Part shown: piece after piece, positions 26,101 to 55,978 of the stretch
How the letters are laid out: each line of letters starts with the position of its first letter
Numbering within the stretch: the stretch's first letter is position 1
Assembly (NCBI RefSeq): GCF_000189635.1
Contig: NW_002476317.1
Location: 248,001-312,000, forward strand
Reading direction: 5' to 3'
Length of the DNA: 64,000 nt
Source: Tetrahymena thermophila SB210
Taxonomy: Eukaryota; Ciliophora; Oligohymenophorea; Hymenostomatida; Tetrahymenidae
Made by a program: the position numbers and the translations under genes
The notes under the pieces: generated by a model
What the model saw: only the letters and a program-made list of their open reading frames with translations
Database searches by the model: none
What the model was told of the DNA's origin: nothing

Positions 26101-27853
26101 ACTTTAGTGCTACCTTCTGTAGGACCTATCGCTATATTTTTTTGCTTCGTTCTTTTTATATGGACATTAATTGGTTTGAATCTCTTCCCTTATCTTAAAC
26201 CTTAACAATATATTAATGGTTTTGATTTATCCTTTAGAGACTTCACATCAACAGTTGCTACATTAATAAGAGTAGCACAGTCTGAATTCTGGTTTGGCCT
26301 TGTTGTAGATGCTGGAAGAGAATAGCAGCCAAATTTTGTATGCTTCAATGTCAGCTCTTACGCAGAATTTGAAATTCATGGTAATAAATTAAAATATTTG
26401 GAAATAAATTTATTAATAGAGATAAATGTATATTTAGGATTGTAAGCTTAATTTTAAATTACCCAAATTTAAACATAAAAATTAACTTCTTAATACCTGA
26501 AATTTAAATTACTAATATTTTTATTAATTTAGTAAACAGATTGAATTTATTTTTAAAAAATAACAATAACAATAACAGGGTTTAGTGGCTGTGGGCATGA
26601 ACTATCTGGTTTTATTTATTTTTTCTCTTTCCACTTGATTGTTTCAATTATGATCGTTAATTTGTTACTAGCTTTGATTATAGATGGAAGTGCAGAAGCA
26701 TTTAAAATCTAGGATGCTGCTTTAAATAGATATTAATTAGATTAAATTCAAGATCTTTGGATGGAATATGATAAAGACGGGCAGGGATTTATAAATTATA
26801 AAGATTTTTGGCAATTCTCTTCGCGTATTTCAATAATCTATGGTGTTAAACAAGAGGATCTCTTAGATATAAACCATAAAAAAGATTTTTTAAAAGTTTT
26901 ACAAATTCCTATATATGAGCTGCAACAGAGAGATAGTAGTGGATAAAATATTTCTCAGTTTGGCTATATTTATCATGATGTAATTATAAAATTAACTGCT
27001 ATTTCTGTCATTTTGAAGTACGGAGCTAGTGATTCAATTAACGATGAATCAAGCATTAAGGATACTACATTATTGAGTAAATTTCATTTTTATCTTTTTT
27101 GTCTAAAATATTTGATTTTTCAATATATCATATAAATAGAAGTACCAGCTTACTCAAAAGTAGTCCCAACACAACTATTTAGTGGTGACATGTCTAGTAT
27201 CATATTAATGTAAAGAAAAATTAAGAAATGGGTGTAAAGACATAAACAGTAAATTTTTAATTTTTATTGTTTAAAAACATAAAAAGCTCTTGAAATAAAA
27301 TAAATTAATAAATTTAGCTTTGAAAATCAACTATAATAAACTACTTACTTAAAATAAAAACATATTATATTTTGATGTATGCATGTAAAAATATGAACAA
27401 AATTATTTTAAATTAAAAAGGATTTAATTGGAAAGCTAAAAGATGTCGAAAAGTAGGTCAGAAAAGCAAATGAATGATTAGCATATGATGAGTGGAGATG
27501 AAGATATTCTTTCGTTTGATGATTAGGTAATAAAGAAATTTGAAATAGCTTTTGAAGATAAATCAAATAGCACCTTCACAAAAACTAAAGAATTTATTAA
27601 TCCTGCTACCTAAAAAATTGATGGAAAGCCAATCAAAGAATTAGAAATAAAGAATCGTGAAAATTATCTGTAATCAAGTGAAGAAATAAGCAATTAATCA
27701 TATAAAACAAAATAAGATTAAAAAGATGACTCGACTTCTTAAATTTAAGAGCCAACACAAAAGACTAAAATTAATGTTCATGCTAATATAGAATAGTAGA
27801 TTTCTCTAAAGGGTGATAACGACGAAGGTGTATTATAAGAAATCAAAATATGA
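20144..27853 (+). CDS. four-domain voltage-gated cation (Ca2+-type) channel
   Basis: Pore-forming channel subunit of about 2035 residues in 19 exons whose lengths sum to 6108 nt in phase. Exon ends include 20332, 20633, 20836, 21033, 21169, 21422, 21863, 22087, 22301, 22776, 24048, 25451, 25719, 26380, 27076 and 27248. Four repeats of S1-S6 are visible. S4-type helices are KVLRIIRI (I), GWRIFRIL (II), FRAIRIIKLSKK (III) and a weak VIRSCRIV (IV). Pore loops read ESIGW, NEEW, CEGW and SEFW. Repeats II-IV keep the filter Glu; repeat I has Ile there. After S6 of repeat IV comes an EF-hand-like loop, YDKDGQGFINYKDF, as in Cav channels. The II-III linker is long and Q/K-rich. The exons at 24110-24186 and 24298-24487 are the least certain. 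Ciliary or somatic Ca2+ entry is inferred from the family. Confidence 0.9.
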
Positions 27854-32280: not shown

Positions 32281-35200
32281 ATGAGCATATAATTTAGTGA
32301 AATTAAAAGTCCCATTTTTCAATAAGCTAGTGATTTTGCCTATGATAGTTCTGGAAGTTAAATTATTTTGGTCAATTCTAGCTCCTTATAAGCTTAATAA
32401 GTGACTTTCGAAAAATAAAGCAGCTTGAATTAGCAAGTAGTAGGTTAATAAGCCCTTAATAATTAATAATAGGTTATGTCAGATGATATCTCTGAACAAT
32501 TAAGCTTTTAAAATACTTCTTTTACATATAAGTAAAATATTTGTATTCCTGAAGAATATTAGCAAGTTGTAGGCAAAGAAATGCTTCCTCAATAGCAAGA
32601 TAAAGATTAAGATAACACCAAGCAAGATACATAAGTAGTAAAAAGCGATAAGATTTAGCCAAGTTTAGGGGCATATTTTAACACTTTAAGATTCTCTAAG
32701 TTAAAAAGTTCATAGACAGGGATTTCTATTTCTCCTTCAGGATTGACTGCAACTTGTAAAGCCTCACAATCAGCTAGTTATGCTATTTGCGGTACAAGTT
32801 TTGCACACTAAAACTCCTATTATTTAGAGTTAGAATTCCCAAATGGGTGTGAAGGTATAGATTTCGGGTTAGTCTAAATGCCCGCAAATTTATAAAATCC
32901 TTAGTCCCTCAAAACTCATTTGATCACTTACAAGTAATATTAAATATATCTTAATAAAATGTTTATCTAGATCAATACTCCATGAACAAGATGCTATACT
33001 AAATTATACATAAATACATCTTGAAATCAATACATAATTTCTGTATCTCACATTTTTATTTTCAAGCAAATAAAATAACTAGAAGCACAAACAAACAAAC
33101 ATTAAAAAAAACATATAATAGAAAAATAATTATAATTTCATCTTATTGAAAAAATGATTCAATAAACCAAAAAATTTCAATATTAGGATTTAAAATAAAA
33201 GTTAACAATTATATATAGTTATAAAAATAAGCTTATCATTTTTTAAACATCTATTATAGGTATAAAACATAAAAAACGGTTGGCGTAAAAATTGATACAA
33301 ATGACTGGACTATTAAAGTTTGGTTTAATGGAGAATTCTAAAAAGTAAAGTCAAAAAGAATCCCAAAAGGTGATTATTCATTCTGTCTTAAAATGAATTT
33401 GAGAGGTGTAACTTGCATAATTAATCCATTTGCAGAAGATCCTGAAAAGAAGCTTTCTTTATATGTAAATTTATTTTTATTTTTATTAAATCTGAGATTC
33501 CGCTTTTATCGTATCTTTTCTTAAACCCTGATCTTATTGCCTTTAATTTTCCTTACACATTTCAAATTAGCTTATTTTTTGTGATCAAATGAAATTTAAA
33601 AATCTTTAATTTAACACAATAATTATTTTTAAAGTAGAGAAGAACTCATTTGAACGGATAAGTAGAAGCAAAAGAGGATTAAAATGCTACTGAATAGCCT
33701 CTAATTTAAGATTTGCTCATAAAAGTTAAAGATTTACTTAATTAAACCTAATAATCACCAAAGCAAGTTGGATCAAACAAAGATGAAAATATTTCTATAG
33801 GTTATTTAGAAAAAAATAATAATTTAATTGCAATTAAAGATAATAAAATAAAGCTTATTAGAAAAAATCATTAAGGCTAATATCCCTTTCATCTTTCGCA
33901 TTTTTAGAATCGTCCTACTAAATTATCTGATATTGTTTTCTTGCAAATATATCTTTCTGAAATCGAAGAGTTGATATCATAACCTAATTTATTTGAATAG
34001 ATTTCTCCAAAAATATCTGAAAATTTATTGAAAAAATTAGCATAAGCAATAGAGCTCTATGGACATATAGATGATAATTAAATTTTAGCTGTCCCATTCA
34101 ATTTCTGTGAAATAAAAAGCACAATTGACTCATTAATAGAGAATGTCACTTCCCACATAAATGCTATTTATGAGTACCTCAACCCATCTGTTGTTTAAAA
34201 TGTAAAATTTGATGGTTTTTATAAAGTTTTAATAAATACTTTTTGCTATTAATATAAAGTTACCTGAAGATAAATAGGTCTATGTAGCAAACAATATAGA
34301 TTTAATTAGTAATAATTAAGTTTATCCTAACGATGGACTTCCTTTTTTTAATGAAAGTGATGAAGATTTACCTTAGTAGGCAGTATTAGAATAAGCAAGT
34401 AGTGCTGCTGAAAAGGTTGAAGAGCCAGCCTAGTAATAAATCAAATAATAAATTTAAAAGAAGTCATTTAAAGAAGATACAGATTCTCATAAATCAGCAG
34501 TTAGTGTAAAAGATCCTATTGAAAACCTGAAAGATATAGCAAAAAATTGGGATATAAGCTCTCTTCATTCTATTTTATATACTTTATTAAGGTTAGATGA
34601 GTAGTTATTTGCAATGACTTTACACGAAGATGCTTCAAATGAGCTTAAATAGCTGTTTAATACAGGAGTTTCACGTATTTTTGCAGCATTTGGAAGATTA
34701 ATTTCCTTTTATAATTACACTAATACAAATTTTTCAATTGAGAATTTGGCTTAAGCAGGATTGGTAAATATTCACGATTTACAATAAAACCTTCGTCATT
34801 TCCTTGATTATTATACTCCTCTTTAAATTTCAAAGGCTTCTAATGTATAAGATATTTAGAAATAAATCTAAACTCAATTAGAAGGAAACAAGTAATATTT
34901 TAGTTGATATCATCTATTTCAATTTATAAGTTATTTTTATATTTAAATTAGCTTTGTAAACGGATCTTTAAATTTAGACGTTGGATTAGATGTAACTGTG
35001 AATTCAATGTCCTATTAAGTTCATAAAAATAGCAAAAACTAAATAAGTGACAAAAAAGTTAAATTTATAAAGCCTTAAAGAAAATACCTTAGTAATTATA
35101 TTTGTTCTTTTGATTCAGAAGGTTGTGTTAACATCTGGAATACAGAATTAAATCTTCAAAGAGTCGCTATTTCTGAATTTAAAAAAGAGTTTGTTTTTCC

Positions 35201-38200
35201 AGTTGAGTGCTAAATTGGTAATGATCTTCGTAAAAATGAGGAAGAGCTTAATAGCAAAATGAACGAAGCTTCCAACAGTTCAAATTTCTAAAGTTAACTC
35301 TATAAAATTCTTGAAAATTCCATATCTTCATAGTGTAAATATGCTAAGAAGCCTAAGCCTATTGAAAAATCGATAGTAGCAGACGCAGAAATTATTGAAA
35401 AGCTATTAAATTATGTATTTTTTTTAAAGTTAGATAAAAAATCTAATTATATTTTTTTCTAAATAGGGTTTTACTGTTAATGTTGCTAAGAAAGCTTGCA
35501 TTGAAGTTAAAAACGAGAGTGTTGAAAAAGCATTAGATGTTGCTTTAAGAATACAACAAGAGGAAAATAGTGAATTAGAATAAAATAATCAGAAGAGCTC
35601 ACTTTTCAGTGGTGATGATGAAATTCATGTTAATAGCATAAAATAAGAGTGGTCATGCGAAATATGTACTTATTAGAACTTTGGCAGATTCTAAAAGTGT
35701 GAAATGTGCTTTTCCCCTGCCCCTGAGAGTGCATATTACACAGAAGAAGAAGTAATGGAGATTATGCAAGAAAAATTGCTTTAAAAATAGTTAGAAGAAG
35801 AAAGAATATTGAAAGAAATTCAAAGAAAAGAAGAAGAAGAAAATAGAATTAAAAAGGAAACTCTGGAAAGAGAAGAGCAGAGATTAAAATAATTAGAAGA
35901 AAATAAATAAAAAATGAAGGCCTTCTTAGAGTAATCTGAAGCTAAAAGTGGATTCTTATTAAATTTAAAATAAAATTCTTTAGCCTAACTAATCGCTGGT
36001 GTTTCATTTAACAGCTAATGTGGTAGCGGTGTCTCTTAAAAGAGCTTGCTTCGTATTAGAAGGTTTGCAACTAACCCAAATTTACTTAATTAATTTTATA
36101 GCTTAACCTCGAAGGGTATTGTTTGTAATTTAAATGGCTAATATATATAAGAAAATACAATTAACTCACTTGAGAGTATTCTCTTTTCTAATGAAAATAA
36201 TCGCTATATTTTTGAAACTCTTTCACCAATAGCTACTGAAAATTCAGATTTACACAATTTGCTTGCTGTGTCAGAAGCTAATTTATAGTTTGAAGAAGAG
36301 AGCATTATCGATTGCAGTTGGAGATTAATTTCATAATCTTCCGAGAACGAAGTAATGATTTTATTAATTTTTTAGCCAATTTAATATTTAAATATTAAAA
36401 TAGACCTATGATTTATTTATCTTGACATGCTCCTCAAACAATTAATTAAATTTGCATTAATATAAAATGGTTTTTGATATCCTCGATCCCTATAATCTTT
36501 AAAAGAAAGAAATTGAAACATAATTCATTAAAAAAATTATAATTAGCACTTAACAAGAAAGAACCGAAGAAGGTCTTATTGTACTATCAGAAAAAAGCGA
36601 AGTAGTTATAGTAGTAATTTAAAATAAAATATTCTATATCCCTATAACTAAATAAGTTATGTCTAATGAGATATAAGTAAAAGAACTAAAAGGCAGTGCT
36701 GAGAACATTAATTTAATATTATCTGGCAGTCTATTTATTACAGATAAAACATAAACTCTTACTATTATTAATATACCCTAATAAATAACTGTTTAACAAA
36801 CATAGCCTAATCAAATTGAATAAGATAGCCAAATTGATTTATATAATACAATCAATTTCACAGAACAATAGCTTAAATTTTTAAAATAATAACTTTAATA
36901 TTATCAAATAGGCACATTAGCTAATAAACTCTCCTAAAAATCTGAATTATATGATTCATTTTCATAACTCAATTCTAAGCATTCATTTAATTTGAGAAAT
37001 AAACATAAATTTGAAGTAGAATTTTAATTATAGAATCCTTAATACTTGTAAAGCATTCTATTGGACTTCAGCCTAGTCTCCCCTTAGAAGGACGCAAAAT
37101 CACTTCTTCCACTTACAGAGTAATTTTTACTATTTAATAAATAAATAAATTTTATTTATCATTTTAAATAAAAAAACACTTTAGCTGTATCTTAAAAGAA
37201 AAAGTTGATCAGAATAGCTTCTTTTCTTTTGATACTTGGGAGCCTTAATCTCAACCTAAGACATCATAAAATGGAAACTCAAATTTAAATTTAAATGAAA
37301 AATCAAATAAATACTTACCTTTATCTATTTAACTTTGCACTGGAACTCCTTATTCATAAAAGCATTAATCTAGTTCAATTTTATTCCCTAATTAAAGTTC
37401 ATTCTAAAGCTTTGATTAAAATTGTTGCTTCCTGGTAAAACATCTTCACAATAAATATATTGTTGCAGATTCTGTAACTATAGAATCTTACGATCATCCT
37501 ATTGAAGGAGGTTATCCAGTAGGCACTTTGTTAATTTTCACTGCTGATCATCCATCTGTTATTGAACGTGCAGCACACCAGTTTTCTTAAATGACATAAG
37601 CAGAATACGATGAATGGAGAGAGAAAAATCAAGGTAGAAATCTTGAATAATGGGAACCTGTTGCCTGTGTTTCATTCAGCGAGTCACAAACTATAAAAAC
37701 TGTTAATGTTGACTACAAAAGGTAAGCTTAAATTTTCAATACTTTCAAACAAATCTTTAAATATAATTTAATAAATTAATTAATAGGTGTTCAAAGTATA
37801 TTTTAGTAATGCCAACTTCTCTTAGACAAAAGTTCAAGCATTTAACTGGAAATCAATGTACATCTTATTAATTTGTTGGTGTTTAAGGTTTTGCTCTGAA
37901 TGAAGTTTCTCAACTTGAAAATGGCTTTAATTTGAAAAATTCTAGCTCAAGTGAAATCTAATTTATTTAAAAATATATAAACGAAAATGTTACAATTGAA
38001 GTTAAGACTCAGCAAAGTAATGAGTGGATTGCTTTAACAGAAGAAAAAACTAGCATATTCTTAAAGAACTTTGCTAAAAACACTGTAGTACCAAATTATA
38101 AATTAAATACTTCCATAGTAAAGCGCTTAAGTGATCTTGGAGAAGTAGCTAGTTCACTTGCTAATTCTAGTGATTTGACTCTTCAATTTATTTCTGAAGA

Positions 38201-41200
38201 TATTTTCACATAATCTAAAATATCATAAATTCGCATTAAAATAGCAAATAATTAAATAAATAATTTTAATTAAATTTAGTCATTGGGATTCACTGTAAAA
38301 GGTAGGATTTATGGTGGCTCTGGTCAATCTCTTTCGGAAATATAAAATAATATTTTATTAAATCCATCTTACTACGAAACTATAAATGGCAAGATAGTTA
38401 GCTAATTAATCGCCCTTTCTTCTGCTTCTTACAACTAAGCAACTAGAAATTTAATAGAAGCAGCATCTTAATATTTAATTTAGGTTATGTCAAGTTCCCA
38501 TAACTACCTTCTTAATGACGATATGATAAACCTCATTTATACTAAATTTGACTTAGAAAGATTCATATCTTCAAATATTCTTTAAAATCCTACTCGTAAA
38601 TTCACTTACTAATATAACCTATTGAGAAGTTTCAGCAGATGCACTGGCTTTTAACAAAAACTTCTTAGCGCTCTTCTTAACCTTCTCCCTTAAATTACAA
38701 CAAGATAAATCCCAGTCACTGAAAGCGGTTTGAGCATTTATTTAAGTCTCTTAAGATGGTGTTAACCTTAAAACGCTTCTAAAATATTCTTACAATTACT
38801 CAATCAACTTCATATAATTTCTAAAAAAGTATAAGAGAAAAAAGATTCCTATTATAATATTTTGACTTCAAGATTTGACATAAATACTTTATGCTTTGAA
38901 AAAAGTCTTTTCAGTGAGTTATTCCTTTCCAAAGAATATAAATATTCCCACAGTAATTTACAAGCAAAAGATAATAGCTACTTAAATTCTAAAGTTTACA
39001 TCACTGAAGATGTATTTGTTCACGAAATTTATATTGATCTCTAAAAGAAATATAACTTGAATGAAATATCCTTAGCATTTAATAGAAACTCTATTTATTA
39101 ATCCAGTTTTAGAGTGATTGTTTGGAAATTTTAAAATAATAAGTAAGAAATGCTAGTAGATGAATAATATGGAAGTGAGACTTTCGTCTAGTTGTCTAAC
39201 TACTCTCATGAAAGTTCATCTTTAAAATAATTTTAAAATAGAGAAGAAATCTCTACTTTGAAGTTGCTAGAAACAGCGGAAACCTCTTAAGTATCTTCAC
39301 GTTATCTTATTATCTAAGTAATTTTTTTTAAATAAAAAAATAAATATTTTAACATATATTTTACTTAATTTTAATTAGATCAATTTTAGTTTGAGACCTT
39401 TTATAGGTACTTCTAAATAATTGAGTGATATTCCTTTTTAGAATAACCATTTTAGACCATTAATATAAGGTGTACTTTCATAGGAAGAATCTAATGAATA
39501 AATTCCTTCATGTTTCCCATAAGATTTCGCTTCCTAATCAGTTGGCATTGATGCTGCAGGTGTCACAAAATCTAAAATCGATGCTGCAGGAGTCACAAAA
39601 TCAAAAACTGATGCTGGAAATTCTTAAATCAATAAGGAGCACTAAAGTTTAGCTATTCTTGATGAAATGCAAAATAAATTAAAAGCTTTACTCACAAATG
39701 AAGAAGCCCATAGAGACATTATAATTAAATAAGTTATTGAAATAGAAGAGGTATTAAAACAAAATTATTTACAAGAAAACTGTAGAAGGTTTAATAATAC
39801 TAATTAGTAAGCTGCACTTTCTAATGATTGCAATTTATCATATCTCTACACATTAGCTTATAGTTTTTCACAATTTTTAAGAAAAATTAATGAAGTCAAC
39901 AACAATTCAGAGGATAAAAAGAATAATTAATGGATTAATTCTGCTACAAACGGAAGAAATAATATTTTCCATGATGTGTTTGAAACTTTTGTAGTTTTTG
40001 ATAACAGTTTATTATCATAGGAAATTCTTACCCTCCTTGGAGAAGTTCTTATTGATAACTTAAGTGAAAAGGAATGGTTATAGTTTGTTTTTACTATTCT
40101 TAAAAGATATTTGATGCAACCAAAGTAAGCCACACTCCCTATAAACTAACTCTTCTCTCAAACAAATCTCATCAAAGCTTTAGACAGGATTTCTATACCT
40201 CTTGGAGAAGTATTGGCTTTCTTAGCTACCTAGTTAAACATTCCTATTGAAAATGTCATACTTGAAACTTAAGAAAGAGAAATTTCTTATGGATACCTTG
40301 CTCCTACTTTAGCTCTGTTATATAATGGATTCAAAAATATTCCTAAAATTAGCGTAATTAAATCATCATTTTTAGTTTTAAAATTTAGTTTATTTTTATT
40401 TTAAACAGATTAATTAGAGAGCTCAAAAAAATAAGGAAAATACAAACAATCAATCTGCTAATCCTAATAAGTTAGCTTAGGTTTTAGACCCAATGAGTTT
40501 AAAGCTCACAAAAAGTGTTTCTCGTGAATTAGAAAGAATAAATAATTAAAAAATTGTAAGTTAAGACCAAGAATAATCTTAATAAAATAAAATCAACTCA
40601 AAAGGATAGAATTCTGCTTAAAAGGAAGCAAAGTAATCAGATAAAAATGAAGAAGAGGAAGAAGATATTTTTATTGTCCTTCCCCCTGCTGGAGTAAAAA
40701 GAAGTGTATCTCACCCTTTGAAAAATGAAATCCAAAAGAGACAGTTGCAAAACGAGTCATAATTGCTAACATCTATTGAAGAGCAAGAAGATATTGTAAG
40801 ACTTGATTACGATGAATCTTTCAATGTTGCATTTTAAGTTTGTGTTTGGATTGTCGAGCACAAAAATAAGTTTGATAGCCAAGAGGAGTTCGTTTAACTT
40901 ATGAAACTATGCTTCAATCTTTTAGAATTAATCTCTTCCTTGTCTTCAATGAATGGAATTAAGAGAACTCTACTAGCAAATTCTTTTGATAATAACACCT
41001 TCTTTAAGCTTTATTTCTATGTCCTTTCTTCAGGTCACAAAGAAATCATTGCTCTACTCTCTCATTTAGTTTTATTATTATCCAATCCTCCTTCTTTCTC
41101 ATAGATAGATTGGGCTTCTTTGAATGTAATTTTATTTATTTAAATGTCAAAACTTTTTTAAAAATTTGCATTATATCAAACAGAAGGAAGAAAGAAGCTT

Positions 41201-44200
41201 CTTACTTAATGAGAAGTAAAGCTTAGAAGAAATACAACTCATATTGGTCTTCCAAATTGAATAAATTATGTAGTGGATGCTTGAGTACTCTATGTATCCT
41301 AGTTCTTCAAAAAATAACTTATATGGCATGATTCTCCAAAAGGAAATAGATTCAGAAGAATGGTCATCTCACTTATAATTTACTATGCAGCTTCTTCTTG
41401 AAGTGAATAAAACTTTGCAAGAAGAATTTAAGCATAAATCCTTTTTGGAAGCCTCTGCATCGAATCTTAGAAAGGGATCTTATGACTAGAATAGAAGAAG
41501 ATAGCAATCAGCTGAAAGAAGAAGCAAGAAAAACTCTTCTCCTAATTAAAATACAAATCAATCCTCTCAAAAAGAAGAAAATATTGATGATGCAGGTGAA
41601 GTTGAAGATGAAATAGCTGAAATAACTTAAAAAACATTTATGGCTACATCTCACGATCCTTCTTAATCTGTAGGTAGATAAATTTCTTAATAACAACAAC
41701 ACAATGCTAATACTAACGATTTGGTCCCTGTTGGCATCTCAAGATCTTTGAGTGTCCCAATTAATAAGCAGCAAATATTAACTCAATATACTAAACAATA
41801 AATGCTGGAGTTTGTTGATAAAAGCATCAGTGAGAGATCTTGCTCTCTTTCTTTGCGTACTGCTATCACACTCATAGATTTAATAGAAGCCTCTTCAACA
41901 GGTACTTAAGCTAATTAGATATACAACTCAAATGGAAAATTGTTAAGCTTTATTGATAATGCTTAAATATGGACTTTGCTATTTAAATTCATAGAGTAAT
42001 TAAAGCTCAAGTAAATACTTTCTTCAAAGCTTTTTGAAAGACTTGCTAATCTATTCTTTAACTATGAATTTTTAACCTCTAAGACTCTGCAATAGATGCT
42101 TCTCTCAAAATCCTATGATTTCCTTATGTTGACACAAAGTCTTTTTAATAAAATTACAAATGAAACTTAATCTCCTAACTTCCCACCTCATATGAGTGCT
42201 GTCCTAAACAGTCCTACTTTAGCTAGCAAGAGAGAATCTGCAGTTAAAGACCATAAATAATTCTGCTAACTTCTCTTGAATATTATTTTTGAACAGCTCA
42301 TCCCTGGCTTAACTTTAGAATCAACAATTACTTCCAGTCTTCCTTCAAAGAGAATATTTGTGTAAGACATACCTCAATAAATATCTTCAGTAATTGCTAA
42401 AAAAACAGGTATTTTATAAACAAGCTCAATCCACTATTTTATTATAAATGGATGGCTTGATATACTATTGACAAAGAGTACTCCTAAACCAGAATCATAC
42501 TACACATAACCTTAAAATGATGTATCATACTGTAAATTAAGCCCTCTAAGCGCAGCCTCTCTATTAGTGAATATTAGTTAATACTTATTAACTCATTGCA
42601 ACTTTGGTGGTTTAAGAGGTATTGAAATTTCAGACCATGAAGTTCTCATTAAATTATAAATTATTTCCATTCTAATATAAATCTTTACTCGCTCTTAAGT
42701 TTCTCCAACTACTAATACCTGCCCTTCTACTTCTTAGCCTTAATGTTTGAAGGAGTTATTTACAACATCTGATTATATTATCTAAGAAAAAATCACTAAC
42801 AGTCTTCAAAATTTAATAAAGTGGTACATCTTTAACAAGGTATATTTTTTTAAAAATCATATAATTCATCATTTTATTTAATATAAAACTTAATAAATTT
42901 AATAAATAGAGTAAAGAAACAAAAAATTCACCTTGTTCAGTTAGCTTGTCTTAAATTAGTTCATAAGTTATGAAGATCTTTGAAGCAACAACTGAATTTT
43001 AAAATATTGCAAAAATCTTCTTGAATGAATTAATTGTTGTTTGCAAAAATTTAGACAGAGTAATGAAAGAACAATTTAATAAAAATTAGATCAACGTTTT
43101 GATTGCTTAATAAATAACTGATAATGCTTCTTATTTATTAGAAACTATGTTTGATTTGTTAGTTTGTAATGACGAAATTGCTTCTTATGTGTCATTTTAA
43201 GTAAAGGGATTCTAGTTCCTCTTAGAAAAGATGGGATTAGAAAAAGTATAAAAAGCTAAAAGAGAAAAATTGACAATGCCTGAGTGTAAGCCAGCTTAGG
43301 AATCTAGTATAATTTGTGGATAAATTATACATAAGAATCCAAAGTATGAAATAGCTTCTTACATAGATTCATGCATTTTAGGAACATATTAATAGTCTCT
43401 CTCATAAGAGGAAAATGATAAATAAAACAAACTACCTGCAAACAAATAAGCTAACCAATAAAATAAAGAGTCTAGCGCAATATCTTCATCAGCTCCCAGT
43501 AGCCTTCTTATCCATAAAATACTCCCTGAAGAGTAGTGCTCTAAAGCTACTCTTATAAAAACTCCAGGATAGACTTGGATTAACAACCCTACAAATTGGA
43601 GTGAATAGAAAAATGGAGCTCTAAATCATAACTTGATATGGACATAAATGAATGGAAAACAACACTCAGAATGTTATTTAACTATTGAATTAGAAAATAA
43701 GGTATAAAAATTCTATTCAAATATCTATTTTACTTATTGAATTAACTAAATTTTATTTTATGTTTATTAGGTCTTCTTATCAAGCATTAAAATTGGCTTT
43801 AACTTGTACTGGGCTGACTATGAAGATAAAGTTCTTGGTATTCCATCAAGCATTTTAGTAGAATACACTAGCGATCTTTCTATACCCTTCAAGCCTCTTA
43901 CTCATTTATCTACAATTTAAGATTAAGGGTAATTAATTATTCATTAAATTTTTATAAATTTAAGTTAATTTATTTTTTTAATTTTTTTAAATAGATATGA
44001 AAACTTCAAAGTAAAAGTAGCAGCCAAAAACTTTGAAAGATTAAGAGAAGATGGAAATGGTGATGTTGAAAAGCTTCTTAGGGCTAACTATAATTAAGAG
44101 GTTAAATTCTTGCGCTTTAGATTTACTCGTCCTATTATCAACTTTATTGAAAATGGATCAGTATTATAAACTAAATTATTTGAAAATATTGCTATCTCAT

Positions 44201-47200
44201 TAAGCTTTATTAGTGTCATGGGTTACCATACTAATATATTGAACTCCTAATAAATAACAGAAAAGGTTATTTCTGAATAAGAGTCAAGTGCTATTAAGCT
44301 TATCGGAAAACTTTGCAATTAGTCTTTCTCTTCAACACTTAACTTGATAGCAAACAATGAATCAATATTAGATAAAATCAAACGCCACTTTGAAGTTATG
44401 AGTTTATTATTAGTAAATCATGAACACTGCTTAGCTCCTGTCTTCTTAGCTATTGCTGGAAATAACTAGGAAATGGGTGATTGGATTCTAACTAATTTCC
44501 TAGATCTTAATAAAGTTAGTTCTCATGCAAAGATGGTTAGCGAAATAGTATGCTCTTAGCTTTCTCATACTCATAAGAGAGTTCAAAAGGTTCATAATTT
44601 TGTCCTTTAATCTGCAGTAAAAGAAATACTTACTCTTCAAGAAGTATCGTCAAACCAATATCAAGCAGCTTTCCACTTCAATGCTCTTTTACCCTTCGCT
44701 GAAACCTGGGCAACATCTATCCATATAAGCGCTTTAGATTTTAGCACTTAAAATCATCTTGCAAGTGCCAGTGGGGAAAGTAATGAAAAATATAGCAAAT
44801 TACTTTTGCCTGTCACTCAAGAAATGATAAACAACCTTATCAAGCTGTATAAAATTTTCTACTAAACTTCTAAATACAAATTAATAATAAAAATCATAAT
44901 CACTGCTCTCAATTTACCAAGACCTTACGTTATAGCTGAAAATATATCATATGAAGAAGAAAAAGTTGTTAGAGAGAATCTTCTCCTTAACACTTTGAAT
45001 GAACTATGGGCATAATCTAAAACTGATTCTAAGTATCTAGAATTGATAGCTCCTCTCATTTTAAGTAATTAACGCGGAGTTGAATGGCTTCTACTTGACG
45101 AACAAAAGAAACTTTTGTAAATGTTAGGTTAATTGCTTAACTTAATTAAATAAAGCAACTCAAGCCAACAAAATATGCTTATTGACTATCTTAACTTCTT
45201 AAGTGCAATCACCACTAATACTACAATCTAAGAAGCTATATGCTCTCAAAAAATGCACATTAATTTCTACAACTGCTTAAAAGATAACAATAAAAATTCA
45301 ACAAAACTTATAAAAACATTCTAAGACCCTCACATGATTTCAATTATTGTTGAAATTTTGAAAAATGTAGCCTTGTCGTCTCCTGAATAGGCTAAAATCT
45401 TCGCTAAAGTGTTGAGTGATGATATAAAACTACTAACTTCTAAACGTGATATGATATACGTCACAAACCTTTTGGTTCCATTACTAAATTCTGAGAAAAC
45501 ATTGTCTGTTGCCTTCCATCCCTTCGATAGCTTTAGTAAATTTAAATTTTAAATTATTTATTTTATTTAATATTTTTTAAAATTTTAAAGGCAACAAATG
45601 GCTTGCAGAAGGTAAAAAGATCCTTGAATACAAGAGAGACAGAAAAGGATAATAATTACCTTAAGATCTTTCAAGTAAATCTGCATCAGTGTTATCTTCT
45701 AATTTAAAGAGACCAAATAGCATTCCTTCATTCGCAACTCAACTTGGAAAGAAAGAAGTTGTTAAAGGTATGTTCCCTTGCTGGGATACCTTAACTCAAA
45801 GTTTGACAACAAAATTACTTTGGAATGATAAATAGCGTGAAGCATTTAATAGAAATATTGAATTATTTACTAAAAAAACAAATTTATTCTCTCAACTTTC
45901 GCAACCTGTAAAAACTTAGGAGACTGATCCCACAAAGAAATTACCATAAATGTGCTATTAATGGTAGCTTGTTTAAGTTTAAGATAAAGATTGCGATCCC
46001 TCTATGCTTGAACTTGTTAAAGAAAATGTTTTAAAGCAAGGACCATTCTTAATTATAATTGAAGGCTACAATTAAGAACAAAAATGCGTTAGCGGTGTCT
46101 TTAGCAGCCAAAGTATCTAATTATAGAAAGTCGAGACTGAGTCTGGAGAGGCTTAGATTATTCCTCGCGCTGATGATAACTTTATCTTTTACTATGAAGA
46201 AAACTTCTAGATGCATTTCGATGTACCACCTGACAACAGCAAGCAGTTTGGTTCGTTGATGCTTATCGAAAAAACTGGAGCCGGACTTCAATTCTAATAT
46301 CTTGAAAATGAACGCATATTCATCAGTTATTAATAATAAATTCCTTCAGTTGTTGATATAAACTTACAAGAGATGACTCCTATCGACACTGATACTAAGA
46401 ATTTCCCAAAAGATGTACCTGCAGAATTCGAGCTAACAAAAGTTGAATATTGGGTCCTTAAACCAAAAGAGATTTAATCTAGTTTGCTTTTTTCATAGAA
46501 CACATCAAAGCATGCTAATTCATCTTCATTCTTACAAAATCTTCATAACAATTTACTTTTCTAATCTCAAAAGTAATTCATTTAATTTGATTTAAAATAA
46601 ATAATTTTATTATTTTTTTATTTAGCCTCAGCGCAAGTAGCATAGCCAACTACTATAGAGCTGTTCCAGTTTATTATATTCCAGAAAGTTTAGACATTGA
46701 AAAAATATTAAGCATGGTAAATGTTGGTGGTTTCTGGTTAAGCGATGAAGGAAAGAATACTCTTAGCTTTAAACTAAGACAAAATAAGAAGCATTAAATT
46801 TAATTGAATACCAAGCTCGCTGAAATAGCTAGTGAAGGAACAAGCTCAGATGGAGTTATAGATTTAGAGTTCGATGCCTTATAACTTTATGAAAATTGCA
46901 CAGAAATAACCAACCCATACTTGAATCCACTCACTAATAAGGTCGACTATTTACCTATAATGCCAATATTTGAAATGTTCTCTCAAGAAGGAGGAATATA
47001 ATAAATTATAGAAGTTATTTAAGCATCTTTGAAGTGTTGGAAAAATACTGAAAGAGCTGGAAAATGGGAAGTCTTTATGAAAGAACTTAAAAAATTCAGC
47101 TTACTTCCAAATTACTTTGGACTCTTTATGAAAAACAAAGATTGTATCGAGTTGTTATTTGAACTTTTAGCAGGGCTCCCTGATGAAATACCTTCATAAG

Positions 47201-50200
47201 ACGATAAAAATAAAAAACTTTCAGGAGGATATAATGTTCCCCCTACAACAGGCACTACTACAGTTACTTCAACAACAACAGCAACAACTACCACAACTAC
47301 AACTACAGCCACTACAACTGCTTCTGGAGCTATTAAAGATAAATAGAATGCTGCTGGATCTAAAAAGTGGGATGAAGAAGAGTAAAAAGCTGTTAATTAT
47401 AGTTACCAAGTGCTAAAAGATACATTTAAATTAGGATAAGATAATGCTGTTAGAGCTGCTGCTCTAGAACATGGACTTATTGAAGCCATTCTTGAAAAAA
47501 TAGCTTAAACTTCAAAAGAAATAAAGAGAACCTTTGTTGCTGATTCTACCTCAAATGAAGAAGAATAGGAAGATAATAATTTAACACTCACAAAATAAGC
47601 TTCAGAAGATGATGGTAAAAAGAAAATTGTACAGAAAAAAGGTATCGGTTATGGTTCAGACAATACTGGATAAAACCAAAAATGGAATACTAATGATTAT
47701 ATAGAATCTAAAAAGGCTAGATCTGAATCTCTCAAGAATCTTGTTGCAGTTTTAGTAAGAAAAATCATATTTTTTTCATTTTAAAATTAATATATTAAAA
47801 AATTTTTTTCTACTTTTAATAGGAAGCATTTTTGGACTTCAAAAACTGGGAACCACCAAAATTGTTAGTAGAATAACTGATGTCAAGTGCTCTATTACCT
47901 TTAGTAGAATCATCTTTAAGAAGTGGTTCTCTATTAGAAATGTCAAAGGATAAAGAATTGGTTTTCACTTATTTGAGTTTGTTGAGAGTCATTGCTAAAA
48001 ATAGTTGTTTAGTCCCTTGTTTATTGCCTCTTGATCCTAGATATATTCCTAAGCAAACTGAATCGGTACTCTTCCTTATTGGATAATTAAAGGATACTGC
48101 CAAAATTTTCTTAAGTTGCATGACTGCTAAGACTGATAACACATCTTCATAACAATAGTAAGAAGAGACCGCTAATTCTAAAAAATTAGCTGATGAAATT
48201 CTTTTAACATTTGAAGCAATTAACGACGCTTGCAAGCATTATCAATAAGAACATGAAGAAGAAGAAGATTTAAACAGCTAGCAAGATGCTATCAATTAGG
48301 TATTAGAATTACCCCTACCTTAAAAATATAAAATATTACTGTAAGATTTGAGGTTCGATTATACTTCATTCAAAAATGAGCAAGGAAAGTATAAGCACCA
48401 CTACTCTTCAAGTATCACAACTTCTTATACCCCTCCTTAAGCTAAAATGGTTCGTCTTGCTTAAGAATTAGCAGATTTATCAACTGCACTTCCTATTGAT
48501 CATACAAATTCTATATTTGTTAGATGCGATACAGATAGAGTAGATGTAATGAAATGTATGGTTATGGGTTCTAAGGGAACTCCATACGCACACGGAGCTT
48601 TTATTTTTGATGTATACTTCAGTGATGAATATCCTAACTAGCCTCCTAAATGCAATCTTGAAACAACTGGTGCTGGTAAAGTCAGATTTAATCCTAATTT
48701 GTATGCTTGTGGTAAAGTTTGTCTCTCTCTGCTTGGTAAAACTTATTTTCTTAAATTAAAATTAATTTTTTTTTTTTATAAAGGTACTTGGAGAGGTAAC
48801 GCTAGTGAGAATTGGGATCCTAAGATTAGTACTTTACTATAAATTTTAGTTAGTTTATAAGCAATTATTATGAGTGAAGAAGTATATTTCAATGAACCAG
48901 GATTTGAAGGAGAAGCTGGCTCTGAGGAAGGAGAGAGAAAGAATGAAGCTTATTCTAACATCGTTAGATATTGCAATATTAAATATGCTATGATAGATTA
49001 AATTAAAAATCCTCCTGAAGGTTTCTAAGCTGTTATTATGAGACACTTCTACCTTAAGAAGTAAGAAATTCTTGAAGAATGTTAAAAATGGATTAAATAC
49101 GCAGATGTAAGATAGGCTTCTTATGTTGGCTTAGTTAATGATCATAATAGCTCATGGTGTGCAGAATTCAAAACTAAATATCCATAAATGTTGCGTGAAG
49201 CAGTTACTGAACTAGAGGAAGTTCTTAATTCAATCCCACCTCCAAGCGCTTAAGAAACTAAACTTAAACTTAAAAACATCAAGAAGAAACCAAAGAAACT
49301 TGAAAAGAAGCAATAGTATGACATCACTTAAGGTGTTGCTAAAATTGACGACATTGATGTTAAGTACGATGATGAAGTAGAAGAAAAGAAAGAAGATAAT
49401 AAAGAAAAAGATTTTATTGATATTAATGATGAAAAAGTTAAGGATAGATGGAGCAGATATATTGGAGCTATGGGTATTGATGCCGTAGCTAAATAGTCTA
49501 AGTGTTCAGTATTCTTGAGCGGTTTAGGCTCTTTAGGTGTCGAAATCTCCAAGAATTTAGTCATGAGTGGTATTAAGAGACTTACTATACATGATTCTAA
49601 GAAAACTTAATTCAGTGATTTGTCAGGTATATTTATTTACTTTTTTTAAATTCATTTTATGGAAAAATTTTATTAAATTTTTAGGACAATTTTACTTGGG
49701 AGAAGAAGATATTGGTAAGAATAGGGCTGAATAAAGCTTAAAGAAAATCAGATAACTTAATCACTACGTCAAAGTAGATACAGCAATGCTTGACAAAGAG
49801 CTTCCTGAAACTGAAGAGGGATTAAAAGAAGACTTAAAATTGCACGATTACAATATTGTTGTTCTCACTGAAGTGCTTTCTATGAAAAAATAAATTTTAA
49901 TCAATGAATTCTGCCGCTCTAGAGGTATTAAATTTATTAGTGCTGATGTTTTAGGTCCTTGGTGTAGACTATTTAATGACTTTGGGGATAAATTCGAAGT
50001 CATTGATAAGAATGGAGAAGATCCTTAGGAAGTAATGATAAAAAATATAACTAATGCTGAAAAAGGTGTTGTTACTCTGCTTCCTGGAGTAAAACATCCT
50101 TTTGAAGATGGTGAGCATGTTATATTCTCAGAAGTCTTGGGAATGGAACTCTAATAAGAAAAAGGAAAAGAAGAAACTTAAACAATGACTATGATGGGTG

Positions 50201-52983
50201 GAGACGAATCTTCCAAACCATCAATTAATAGCACTATTCATAAGATTAGAGTAATTAACTCCAATTCATTTGAAATTGGAGATACTAGAGGATTTACCAA
50301 TTACGTTAGAAATGGTATCGCTAAAAATATAAAAACTCCTGTTAACATTTCCTTCAAGAGTATGGCAAATGTCTTTAATGTCTCAAAATTAGATGAAGTT
50401 CCTTTTGATCCAAATTTAATAATTCATGATTTTGAAAAAATAGAAAATCCTCATATCTTATTCTTAGCATTTAAAGTACTTGAAGAATACTAAAGTACCC
50501 ACAAAGGATGTTTACCACAGTGCTGGAACGCTGATGATGCCAAACAATTCTTGACTTTAGCAGAACCAGTAATAGCTAAATATTACCCTGATTCTTCCTA
50601 GCAACCTAAAAACCTTAAAGAAATTCTTTTACGTTTTGCTTTAACTGTTAATAGTAATGTTGGTCCATTTGCAGCTTTCTTAGGTGGTTTTGTCACTCAG
50701 GAAATCGTTAAAGCAATAACTAATAAGTATATTCCTACTTCTTAAGTATTTTTCTCAGATTGTATGGAAATCATTCCAGAAAGCGGAGATCTAAATATCA
50801 ATAATTACGCATCTTATATAGAAAAGAATTATGCCTTAGAGTTTGCTCCTACTAATGACAGAAATGATGGTATCCGCCATGCTATCGGAAACACACTCCT
50901 TAATTAAATTAAATTCTGCAATCTCTTTATGATTGGATGTGGTGCTATAGGATGTGAACTTCTTAAGAATTTTGCTATGATTAACCTAGGAACAGGCGTT
51001 GATAAGCAAAATGGAAAAATAGGCTAACTTACAATTACAGATCCTGATCATATTGAAGTATCTAACTTAAATAGATAATTCCTTTTCCGTGAGAAACATT
51101 TACGTAAGCCAAAATCATAAACTGCAGCAGCATCAGCTATTCAAATGAATCCTCTATTAAAGGATCACATTTTAGCTCGTTTGGATAAGGTTCATGATGG
51201 AACAATCAATATCTTCTCTGATAAATTCTTCTCAACTTTGAATGTAGTTGCCAACGCACTTGATAATGTTTAAGCAAGAAGATATGTAAAAAATTATCAT
51301 TTTTAATTAATTACTTACAAATAAAAAATATAATTACAATAATAAAAAATTTAAATAATAAATAATAGGTTGATTCTAGATGTGTAAGTAACAAAAAGCC
51401 TTTGTTAGAAAGTGGTACACTTGGTCCTAAGGGACACGTCCAAGTAATCCTTCCTTATAAAACTGAAAGTTATGGAAGTCAGTAAGATCCTTAGGAAGAG
51501 GGAGAAATACCTCACTGCACTTTAAAGATGTTCCCTGAAGAAACTTTACACTGTGTTGAATGGGCTCGTGACAAATTTGGAAAGCTATTCACTTTGAGAC
51601 CAAAGAGCGTAAATAAAATCTTAGAAGATTCTAATTATGACCCATAAGGTGGACAAGAATTAAAGGAATTCAAAGAAGCAATAAAATTATTAGAGAAGAG
51701 ACCCCAGTCATTCTCTGATTGCATTGCCTATGCTGTCAAAAAATTCTATAAATACTTCAGAAACGACATCTGCTAACTTATGTACACATATCCTATTGAT
51801 TCAAAAACTAAGGATGGCGAACCTTTCTGGAAACTCCCTAAGCGACCTCCTACTGATATTAGCTTTGATCCTAATAATTAATTACATCGTGATTTCGTCA
51901 CTGCTTTAGCTGTTTTACGTGCCAAGATATTCTAGGTAGAGTATCCAAAGTCATTTAGAACTGAAGCTGAGAAAATAAAAATTGCTTAAGAGGCTAGTAT
52001 AGTAAAGATAGAAGATTTTAAACCATCAGAAAATAAAGCCTAAGCCATTTCATCAGAAGTAAACAAAGATAAAAAAACAGATGAGAATGATAAAGATGAA
52101 TAAGAGGCACAAGAAGAAGACCAACATTCAAATAAGATAATGGATGAAGTCGCTGAAAAGGCTATGCTCATGAAAAAGCTCTCTGAAATTAAGAAAGTTA
52201 TTCCTGAAGAGTATTTCAAGCCAGTAAATATTAATTATTTTTTTTATATTTTGTTAAATTTTTTGGATTAAAAAGAATACTGAAAAGCACCTTTTACTTG
52301 CAGAGGAATTTGAGAAGGATGAGGATGATAATGGTCACATAGATTTAATTTATGCAATGGCTAACTGCAGGTCTACTAATTACAAACTTGCTCCAATGGA
52401 TTGGATTTAAGTTAAGATTAAAGCTGGCCGTATTGTTCCTGCTTTAGCTACAACCACTGCAACAGTCGCTGGTTTGCAAACAATAGAATTAATAAAAATA
52501 TTGAAAAATGAAAAGCTCAGTAATATGAAGAATGCTTTCTTGAATTTAGCTGTCCCTCTCATTCAACTCACAGAACCTTAGAAAGCTGAATAAATTAAAA
52601 TACATGAAGAGTTAGAAGTTACACTTTGGGATAGATGGGAAGTGTCCCTGGGTTAAAATGTAACTCTAAAATAGGTTTTCTAACATTTCGAAACTAAATA
52701 TAAGCTTAACGTTTGCGATATAATAAGTGGAAGCAAACCTATTTATTTAAGTACTGTGATGGACATAGCAGGAAAAGAACATGAAAAAGAAAAGACTTTG
52801 AATAGCCAAATAACCGATATTATTGAAGTCGAAGTAAATATTTATTATATCTAATTACATCAAATTAATTAATTTTATTAACTTAAATAATAGGATGATT
52901 ACATTGATTTAATATTTACTTTCTCAAATAAGAAAGGAGAAAAAGTAAAACAAACTCCTCTTGTACGCATTTAATTCAAGTGA
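32281..52983 (+). CDS. Giant BIRC6-like E2 fused to a ubiquitin-activating E1
   Basis: About 6352 residues in 22 exons; exon lengths sum to 19,059 nt with every phase matching and no in-frame TGA. The order is: SPRY (about 143-285; [19 protein letters not shown]); UBA (about 853-890); NZF/RanBP2 finger (about 922-942; [10 protein letters not shown] then CEMC); Glu/Lys-rich coiled coil (about 955-1010); about 3000 residues of helical body; TLDc-like region (about 4085-4200; [16 protein letters not shown]); Thr-run; BIRC6-type pre-E2 and UBC core (about 4730-5180, catalytic Cys near 5033); acidic/Lys linker; full E1 (about 5255-6352, catalytic Cys near 5902). Expected role: activate ubiquitin, pass it to its own E2, then ubiquitylate bound substrates in the cytosol. 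No BIR domain was seen. The start is the first in-frame ATG, giving MSIQFSEIK. Confidence 0.88.
39550..39617 (+). repeat. 30-bp in-frame tandem repeat
   Basis: Two copies of a ten-codon unit, DAAGVTKSK plus Ile or Thr (39550-39579 and 39580-39609), followed by the first codons of a third copy, sit inside exon 9 of the giant gene. It looks like a recent small expansion in a disordered stretch. Confidence 0.85.
47245..47319 (+). repeat. Thr-rich low-complexity tract
   Basis: A run of ACA/ACT/ACC codons encodes a nearly pure Thr segment with a few Ala, Val and Ser residues, in exon 16 of the giant gene. It separates the helical body from the BIRC6-type C-terminal module. The reverse strand reads as a Val-rich frame, which is only its complement. 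Confidence 0.9.
48447..49260 (+). other. UBC (E2) catalytic domain of the giant gene
   Basis: The E2 fold spans the end of exon 17 and the start of exon 18. It is not a generic E2 but the BIRC6/BRUCE subtype: [50 protein letters not shown] and [10 protein letters not shown] all match that family, as does the following HFYLKKQEILEECQKW helix. The catalytic Cys is in KVCLSLL (codon 48720-48722). A 48-base intron (48736-48783) falls five codons after it. The upstream KGIGYG and helical segment also match the BIRC6 pre-E2 region. Confidence 0.93.
49438..52983 (+). other. E1 ubiquitin-activating domain of the giant gene
   Basis: About 1100 residues, the usual E1 length, with all canonical parts: inactive adenylation half ([26 protein letters not shown]), active adenylation half with the nucleotide motif [15 protein letters not shown] and [17 protein letters not shown], the Cys domain with catalytic Cys in [10 protein letters not shown] (codon 51516-51518), the [13 protein letters not shown] helix, and a C-terminal ubiquitin-fold domain ending LVRIQFK before TGA. 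All key motifs are intact, so it should be active. The type is ubiquitin E1 (UBA1/UBA6 class) rather than a NEDD8 or SUMO E1. I cannot decide between UBA1 and UBA6 by eye. Confidence 0.92.
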
Positions 52984-53698: not shown

Positions 53699-55315
53699 TC
53701 AGTTGATTAAGTCTAAAATTTCTGGAGCTGGAGGAACGAAGCTTGACTTTTCTCTAAAATATTTAGGCTGCATTAAAAAGTTAGCAAAGTCTTCAATCAT
53801 TTCTTTTCTTTTAATTTTGCCAATCATGAAAAGCTTCTTGAGCAAAACAATCGAGTAAATTAGTTACTTTCTGAGGAATATTTTTTATTGAACTCTGTTG
53901 TACATTTCATGAACATCTATGTAATAGTTAGAAGATATTTTATCTAGCTCGGTTAATTCAAAGTTCATCAAAGGAGTTAATTCTCTTTCTATTATCTGGA
54001 TAAGATCTTAATAGATTTAATGATTTCCTCTGTAGGTATTTCTTAAATCCATATTCAAGTTTAACATTTATAGGGATTTTAGTTATTATATGCTGTTTTC
54101 TAGCATTTTCATTTTTCTTTCACCAAAAGGTATACCAATCAAGCTCAATTAAAGGCTAGTTAGCTAAGTCAGATTACCTATTTGGGTGAATAAAGGAGTT
54201 ATTTCATTTTTAATCTCACTCCAACTTAAATCCAAGTTTAATTATTTTAGTTAACTCATTTATCCTAAACTTTAGCTGAATTAAAGTAGGCATTCTTTCA
54301 GTTATGGCATCTTTATTCTTTACAAATTCAAAAAGAGCTGATTTAGGTGAGTTAAATTTTTAAAAGTACCAAATAAATTCAAGGAAATATCCTCATTCAA
54401 TATTTCAAACATCCTTAAATCAAGACCAAGTACTTTTAATTAGCTTAAAGAAGCAAACTCATTTAAAAATTTTACGATGTAATTCGAGCCTTCTACTTTA
54501 AAGCAATTAGATGAAAGGGAAAGCTACAAATTTTAAATAAATTGCTTCTTTTCAATACTTTAAAGTATTTAAATCAAATCTTAATCATCAAGTTTATTAT
54601 ATCTCAGATTTAGCTTAAGACTCTCTAAGTTTTCACATCCAGAAAGGAAGTTAGATAAATATTATGACCCATTCTTGCTTAAGCTAGTATTTGTGAAATC
54701 AAACTCAAGTCTTTTCATAGAGATTTGTTATTCCTTTTTATTTAGGGATCCAAGAGATTGGAATGCATCACTATGAATATAGTTTGTAAAAGTAATCTTG
54801 AGTTCTTCAACTTTAGGGAGAGAGGTTGCAATATCTATGATATTATTTATTTTATCAGGATTTGATTTGATTTGAGCAAAATGAATGTTTAACTTCTATA
54901 TATTTTCTTCGCTAGAAATTCTCTTAAATAAGTTTAAAAAGGAAAGAACTTTCTCATTTTACCCTATTTTAGTGATGCTCTTCCAATCAAAATTCAAAGA
55001 TAACTATTTTTTTAACTACATATCATCTACCAATTAGTCATCAAAAGTAGCACTTTCATCAATGGCATGAGTTACCTTTATTGTTATTTCTTCTACAGTA
55101 TCCTAAAATACTTTAATAACTTAAAACATTTTTTAAATTTCCTCAAATTTGACCACAGTTAAATTGAAAGTAAACTCAATTCCGTTTACAGAATATGTTT
55201 CAATTTGCTTTTATTTCATGAACTCTAAAATATCATTGGTATCAAGGATATGAGGGTAATTTTAACATTTTTCTTCATCTATCCTAAAAAACAAACCAAT
55301 CTTTTTTTCTGTCAT
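53699..55315 (-). CDS. leucine-rich-repeat protein (538 aa)
   Basis: Single-exon minus-strand frame of 539 codons from ATG (55315, MTEKKIGLFFR) to TGA (53699-53701), with many TAA/TAG Gln codons. From about residue 150 on, irregular leucine-rich repeats of the ribonuclease-inhibitor type recur every 25-30 residues, for example ENLESLKLNLRYNKL, LTHLNQLFLNL, MSQLKQLNLDLSW and LKSLQMLNLNMDL. Ciliates have large families of such proteins, used as binding scaffolds and mostly of unknown role. The N-terminal 130 residues and the basic, helical C-terminus carry no other domain. No signal peptide or membrane segment is seen, so it is probably cytosolic. It shares a 663-base upstream region with the YbaK-like gene on the other strand. 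Confidence 0.82.
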
Positions 55316-55978
55316 ACCAGGCCGAAAATAGCGCTGGCTTCTTCTAGGTATCTTTGAAAACTGTTATTAACTAAATTTATTCATGGTTTTAGAGTATTAA
55401 AATTTTTAAGAATTTAAAATCTCTCGCTTTTACTTGTATATTTCACAAAATTAATTATTTTTTCATATATTAATTAATTGATTTTCTCTAAATGACTAAT
55501 AAATATATAATTAGTGAACTGATTAAATACTATTTATGTTTTCTATCATCAAATAATGAATAAAGAGATAAGAAGAATTTACCCATTATAAAAGAATATA
55601 AAATATAAATAGTTCAATTCTAAAAAAAGATGATTTGTTAAAAGTTAAATAAAAAAATTATGATTTTATATTTTGTCTTTTTTATTTTAAATATTTTATT
55701 TTGTTTCAATATTTGTTTTATTTTTTTGTTTATTAATTACTTCTTATTTAAATTTTGAAATTAAATCATTTTTTATTTATTTATTTACTTCTCTTTTATG
55801 ATATCTTTAACAGGTTTTAAATGATTAAACATCAAATCAGATATTTTCTGGATAAATTCTTTTTAAATCTTGTGAAATTCACTATTAATTACTGCTACTT
55901 TAAAAATATTAAATAATTTAATTTTGGATATCTTTTTATTTTTATTAACTAAAAAATAAGATTAATAGTTAACAATAA
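55316..55978. promoter_or_regulatory. shared divergent upstream region
   Basis: 663 bases of very AT-rich sequence lie between the start codons of the LRR gene (minus, 55315) and the YbaK-like gene (plus, 55979). Both promoters must lie here. I see no specific binding motif. Confidence 0.4.

Follow-up and report, generated by a model that had tools for sequence, protein, structure and literature searches.

A ciliate gene in which a BIRC6-type ubiquitin-conjugating enzyme and a UBA6-type ubiquitin-activating enzyme share one open reading frame

The window that we analysed is a 64,000-nucleotide stretch of ciliate DNA with an AT-rich composition (GC 0.15-0.33 per kb). It was read with genetic code table 6, in which TGA is the sole stop codon, and exons were taken from a dynamic-programming splice model. 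The model placed an intron-rich gene of about 20.7 kb and 26 exons on the plus strand. The gene and the features discussed below are as follows.

32281..52983, plus strand: whole gene (splice model), encoding 6374 amino acids if the start codon is the ATG at 32281 (MSIQFSEIK)
34952..36351, plus strand: UBA-like domain (across an exon junction) and RanBP-type zinc finger, in two exons (Pfam)
47853..48420, plus strand: region collinear with BIRC6 residues 4358-4565, directly before the UBC domain (phmmer against PDB chains, E 1e-7)
48447..49244, plus strand: BIRC6-type UBC domain (E2) with C-terminal extension (Pfam UQ_con 1.8e-21; BIRC6 score)
48784..49626, plus strand: junction exon, a single open frame that runs from the second half of the UBC domain through the BIRC6-type extension and the linker into the beginning of the E1 (splice model)
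49245..49442, plus strand: Lys/Glu/Asp-rich linker of 66 residues (exon translation)
49443..52980, plus strand: complete UBA6-type ubiquitin E1 (IAD, FCCH, 4HB, AAD, SCCH, UFD), 1095 amino acids in five exons (Pfam; UBA6 score; trees)
52981..52983, plus strand: TGA stop (splice model), followed by 719 bases with a GC content of 0.134 up to the next long open frame

With a start at 32281, the protein consists of 4755 upstream residues and 1619 residues from the last six exons (47823-48735, 48784-49626, 49685-51285, 51369-52223, 52276-52833 and 52894-52983, the last of these including the TGA). The splice model's own choice of start was 31821, which is earlier and doubtful; the first five to six exons of the gene are uncertain, and the model gives only weak support to those that lie 5′ of about 33.6 kb. 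The UBC domain, the linker and the E1 lie in the last third of the protein. A preliminary description of this DNA had given the range 47823-52983, and its boundaries were reproduced exactly by the last six exons, but the gene begins about 15 kb further upstream. Likewise, the boundaries of what had been called exon 18 (48784-49626) were recovered, although this exon is number 22 in our model. Across the 26-exon frame TAA occurs 288 times, TAG 78, CAA 117 and CAG 16 times, while TGA occurs once, at the end. Short GT-AG introns are abundant; from exon 7 on, all 19 introns are 48-83 nt long with a GC content of 0.036-0.155, and exon GC is 0.247-0.349. Base composition, codon use and introns of this kind point to a ciliate nuclear genome.

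The neighbouring genes look eukaryotic in kind, with four Ion_trans matches, Ras and EF-hands. The Ion_trans matches come from four ORFs on the plus strand at 21731-26541 (E 7.1e-10, 6.7e-23, 1.1e-40 and 1.5e-14), which together look like a four-domain voltage-gated cation channel. On the minus strand, a 587-residue open frame at 53702-55462 is convergent with the fusion gene across the 719 bases described above. Of the frames ranked, it scored highest for coding apart from the fusion gene, and Pfam gave no match to it at E values up to 0.001.

Comparison with PDB chains identified the E2 half as BIRC6-type. The UBC domain with its extension scored 249.9 bits against BIRC6 (E 2.3e-73) and 234.1 bits against the BIRC6 homologue 9qgg_A. 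Among the best 60 of 236 matches, the best chain outside BIRC6 was UBE2O with at most 132.3 bits, then came 9quf, which is named only 'Ubiquitin-conjugating enzyme' (103 bits), and UBE2Z (at most 101 bits), with all others below 55 bits. In the alignment, the UBC domain retains the active-site Cys of BIRC6 and its FNPN context; the Cys lies in KVCLSLL and is encoded by codon 48720-48722. BIRC6 homology extends beyond the UBC domain, since the collinear stretch before it adds a further 188 residues. In the phmmer search with this region, five of the seven listed sequences were BIRC6 and the other two had E values of 0.037 and 0.8. Neither a profile nor phmmer searches with two further upstream pieces gave a match N-terminal of BIRC6 residue 4358; the homology detected is confined to roughly the last 500 residues of BIRC6.

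The domains named for BIRC6 in PMC10827748 include an armadillo dimer, WD40, CBM32 and UBL. Pfam matched none of these in the 4755 spliced upstream residues, and it found no BIR domain there at E values up to 1. The UBA-like domain (UBA_7) scored 26.3 bits on the spliced protein (7.2e-06), just below the cut-off of 27, and Zn_ribbon_RanBP reached 28.3 bits within a single exon (cut-off 27) and 24.6 bits in the long protein, with the motif CEICTYQ at 35656-35676. AlphaFold predictions made without an alignment for two upstream exons had pLDDT values of 37.8 and 43.6, which are too low for the folds to be used. A Thr-rich low-complexity run is encoded in the scaffold at 47240-47330, about 1.1 kb 5′ of the UBC domain. 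Because no BIR was found, we class the protein, as judged from its domains, as a BIRC6-type E2 scaffold, and neither as a full BIRC6 nor as an inhibitor-of-apoptosis protein. The earlier assignment to the BIRC6 type stands on the UBC domain, the extension and the collinear stretch upstream, whereas calling the protein a complete BIRC6 would overstate the case.

The exon that joins the two enzymes is 843 nt long and contains no in-frame TGA, whereas its two remaining forward frames have 5 and 23. A TGA-free forward frame arose in none of 2000 dinucleotide shuffles of this exon, which had a mean of 8.4 TGA codons per frame. We also scored the exon with a codon log-odds model that had been trained without it. 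The values ran from 9.8 to 24.7, and the coding frame was the best of the three in all 13 overlapping windows, including those over the linker. As a control, all 15 values from the downstream intergenic stretch, part of which also served as background, were zero or below. The GC content of the linker is 0.287 versus 0.134 in the bases 3′ of the gene. A chance open frame at the junction was judged unlikely from the shuffles and the coding-like windows. The E2 and E1 halves share one open reading frame, and a single polypeptide is predicted from it.

Pfam analysis of the 1619 spliced residues detected ThiF in two stretches (2.9e-73), UBA_E1_SCCH (2.4e-68), E1_4HB (2.3e-16), E1_FCCH (3.4e-15) and E1_UFD (1e-11), the last covering 93/93 positions of the model. 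The E1 Cys lies in the SCCH domain and is encoded by codon 51516-51518. With the TGA-free shared exon, coding-like throughout, and the full domain set, these results agree with the preliminary description, which had reported an exon open from the E2 core into the E1, an E2 fused in frame to a complete E1, a catalytic Cys in both enzymes and an intact C-terminal ubiquitin-fold domain.

When the window E1 was compared with E1 chains using phmmer, UBA6 chains scored highest (690-695 bits), the best match (694.9 bits) covering residues 5-1091 of 1095. A UBA6/UBA1 chimaera scored 664 bits, the UBA1 chains 9mc4 and 6dc6 636-640 bits, and 9qgg_B 607 bits. Scores were 578-584 bits for UBA1 of yeast, 564-568 bits for fission yeast, and 460-476 bits for UBA7. 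A control eukaryotic UBA1 had the opposite pattern, with 1454 bits against UBA1 versus 806 bits against UBA6. This control (288-3584 of its contig) is a complete intronless eukaryotic-type UBA1 of 1098 amino acids with a full SCCH match; its contig is filed as a Planctomycetota MAG and presumably represents eukaryotic contamination. It was one of three loci found in one genome-contig scan and the only eukaryotic-type E1 among them. The other two are bacterial, with 23 and 26 percent identity, and were dropped. Scans of viral and genome contig collections returned no ciliate sequence.

We built unrooted IQ-TREE trees from up to seven rows, consisting of the window E1, one UBA6, four UBA1s and, in the larger tree, UBA7; the UBA6 and UBA7 rows end before the UFD, and the letter make-up of UBA7 was flagged as odd. 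The window E1 and UBA6 were united at 100/99 in the tree with the four UBA1s and at 100/100 once UBA7 was added. UBA7 served as a long-branch control and grouped with human UBA1 at 97/97. With seven rows the branch lengths were 1.33 for the window E1 and 1.37 for UBA7; in the tree without UBA7 the window branch was 1.59 and was flagged. That UBA7, which is equally long-branched, goes to the UBA1 side argues against long-branch attraction. AU tests rejected uniting the window E1 with each of the four UBA1s (p 1.7e-5 to 1.6e-4) and with UBA7 (p 8e-4). In the comparison with UBA1 and UBA6 that had been proposed earlier, then, the E1 half joins UBA6, and by sequence it sits on the UBA6 side of the tree and is not an ordinary UBA1. 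It may be the sister of UBA6 or a third ancient lineage near UBA6, the latter being possible because the tree is unrooted and UBA6 is represented in it by one row, cut short of the UFD. In PMC9391358, UBA6 is described as restricted to vertebrates and sea urchin.

Comparisons of identity and of diagnostic columns partly ran counter to this placement. Raw identity was 366 of 846 columns with UBA6 versus 345 with human UBA1, a margin that was zero or below in 401 of 5000 resamples, and UBA1 was slightly closer than UBA6 to the window E1 in two of five domains. Of 87 columns in which the four UBA1s are alike and UBA6 differs, the window E1 follows UBA1 in 29 and UBA6 in 20, and carries some other residue in 38. 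In leave-one-out controls, the UBA1 left out followed the other UBA1s in 87 of 106-147 columns and UBA6 in 6 to 23. At columns private to UBA6, the window E1 matches UBA6 at 60/311, and the four UBA1 controls do so at 22/334, 35/347, 47/359 and 27/339.

The InsP6 pocket of UBA6 provided a further comparison. According to PMC9391358, K644, K706, K709 and Y710 hold the axial phosphate, and InsP6 binding by UBA1 is reported there to be absent. The window E1 has all four axial residues, compared with 0, 0, 1 and 0 in the four UBA1s and none in UBA7. Of 15 pocket positions, 7 in the window E1 carry the same residue as UBA6, compared with 2, 3, 2 and 3 in the UBA1s and 1 in UBA7. The identities are K628, W640, K644, K687, K706, K709 and Y710; K628 and W640 are largely common to UBA1 as well, and K687 is identical in one of two alignments and falls in a gap in the other. 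K652R and R691K are conservative changes, and the window E1 differs at S647, S648, L702, K714, K800 and K810 (6/15). InsP6 binding by the window E1 is plausible given these residues.

UBA6 acts with BIRC6, and in human cells made to express mouse BIRC6 it is reported to be enriched in the BIRC6 complex (PMC10827748). UBA6 and BIRC6 chains also occur together in PDB entries 9qgw (chains B and A) and 9xgb (chains A and B). In entry 9qgg, the BIRC6 homologue 9qgg_A is found with an E1 that falls among the UBA1s in our tree, so the tie between BIRC6-type enzymes and UBA6 may not be universal, and the resemblance of the fused E1 to UBA6 gains weight from this. The preliminary description had taken the fusion to point to E1-BIRC6 pairing. 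This argument is now stronger because the fused E1, by its tree position and pocket residues, resembles the kind of E1 that partners BIRC6.

We consider it probable that the product of the gene is one giant protein, roughly 6,400 residues long and composed of a scaffold, a BIRC6-type E2 and a C-terminal UBA6-type E1, which charges itself by tethered hand-over. Canonical E1s pass ubiquitin to E2s through a UFD that swings toward the SCCH cysteine (PMC12355090). In the proposed mechanism, the E1 part would adenylate ubiquitin and then load its own SCCH cysteine, and the UFD would deliver ubiquitin to the BIRC6-type UBC domain, to which the E1 is tethered by the flexible linker of 66 residues. 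By our own estimate the extended linker could reach more than 200 angstroms, which would be enough for transfer inside a single chain or between the chains of an antiparallel dimer of the kind formed by mammalian BIRC6. The charged UBC domain would then modify substrates bound to the scaffold. What in animals is a UBA6-to-BIRC6 step would in this way be intramolecular, and it would not depend on the UBA1 pool of the cell. We infer cis charging, E3 activity and InsP6 sensitivity of the fusion protein from its domains and residues.

The same locus could instead give two products, with an internal start, alternative polyadenylation or proteolysis freeing the E1 and the fusion being a minor form or a precursor. 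Two in-frame ATGs, at 49188 and 49470, lie close to the junction, and the linker is charged, of low complexity and likely to be exposed. However, neither a stop codon nor an AT-rich spacer like the one 3′ of the gene separates the halves, an E1 begun at 49470 would be without DRWSRYIGA, and the model has no intron between the halves, so a splice switch there is unlikely. We regard separate products as distinctly unlikely. An assembly error that wrongly joined two genes inside an exon is very improbable indeed, as the joint would have to be in frame, on the same strand and TGA-free, in coding-like sequence of matching composition, and would by chance have united the known partners, a UBA6-type and a BIRC6-type enzyme.

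Other explanations accept the fusion and dispute its meaning. The E1 half could be a fast-evolving ciliate duplicate of UBA1 that was fused to BIRC6 by chance. Its branch is long in both trees, the UBA6 identity margin is modest and reversed in two domains, and at the 87 diagnostic columns the UBA1 residue outnumbers the UBA6 residue; moreover, no ciliate UBA1 was among the UBA1 rows compared. Yet the order of scores and the trees and AU tests with their long-branch control all favour UBA6, true UBA1s keep the UBA1 residue at diagnostic columns far more often than the window E1 does, and the matches at UBA6-private columns exceed those of all four UBA1 controls, as does the complete axial InsP6 quartet. 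A UBA1 duplicate is unlikely on this evidence. It is also rather unlikely that the fused E1 serves the whole cell as a general second E1, with the scaffold a mere anchor and most ubiquitin passing to other E2s in trans. Animal UBA6 does serve USE1 and UBE2Z as E2s, according to PMC11354881 and PMC12355090, UBA6 and UBE2Z chains occur together in PDB entries such as 9ykv, and a tethered UFD need not be blocked. The E2 to which this E1 is tied, however, is of the BIRC6 type and has kept its cysteine and extension, which would be pointless in an anchor. We thus favour the self-charging E2-E1 protein.

Several known systems resemble this protein in part. Animal BIRC6 (BRUCE, Apollon) shares with it the UBC domain and C-terminal extension, the collinear region before the UBC domain, the giant scaffold and the affiliation with UBA6. 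Unlike animal BIRC6, which has a BIR, the window protein has no detected BIR and carries the UBA-like and RanBP zinc-finger domains in its N-terminal part; and whereas BIRC6 ends soon after the UBC extension (the chain ends at 4859 and the match at 4809), the window protein adds a whole E1. UBA6, the E1 for ubiquitin and FAT10, has the same canonical domains as the window E1, which also resembles it in tree position and in the four axial InsP6 residues. In animals UBA6 is a free protein, however, while here the E1 forms the C-terminal end of a giant E2 and six pocket positions differ. UBE2O, an E3-independent E2, is likewise a large E2 with E3 function, a role that the window protein is predicted to share, and it was the second-best family for the UBC domain, scoring roughly half as many bits as BIRC6 (132 versus 250). 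UBE2O is not known to have an E1 part.

The bacterial CBASS protein Cap2 also has an N-terminal E2 and a C-terminal E1 in one polypeptide. According to PMC12355090, Cap2 is similar to ATG7 with an E2 bound, and in phage defence the substrate that it conjugates is a CD-NTase, which is not ubiquitin-like. The ATG7-like Cap2 is without canonical SCCH and UFD domains, whereas the window E1 is of the canonical ubiquitin type and has both, and Cap2 is encoded in a bacterial defence operon, whereas the neighbours of the window gene are eukaryotic in kind. The earlier statement that no described E1-E2 fusion of this kind was known must be narrowed accordingly, as E1-E2 fusion as such is known from Cap2, the only example in the listed open-licence PMC literature; that literature contained no description of a UBA6-BIRC6 fusion or of any other canonical eukaryotic E1-E2 fusion. 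What is new here is the fusion of a canonical eukaryotic UBA6-type E1 with a BIRC6-type E2, and not E1-E2 fusion as such.

The fusion of two genes is strong and independent evidence that their products work as a pair, and in this case UBA6-type and BIRC6-type partners are joined in a lineage far from animals. It is possible, and we offer this tentatively, that the UBA6-BIRC6 axis predates the split between animals and ciliates and has here been condensed into an ATP-driven, self-charging and substrate-selecting polypeptide that kept the inositol-phosphate pocket. As far as we found, no other natural protein unites E1, E2 and E3 for canonical ubiquitin in a single chain, so under this reading it would be the first. 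Confirmation of the fusion would move the origin of UBA6 back or imply a transfer, and would establish that the E1 of BIRC6 can be built in. Structural work on ubiquitin hand-over would also gain a compact E1-E2 pair from nature, which could serve in engineering self-charging ligases.

Inspection of the UBC domain revealed a 48-nt intron (48736-48783) without an in-frame TGA. If this intron were retained, it would add 16 residues directly after the active-site strand of the E2, which could be a possible off-switch or chance.
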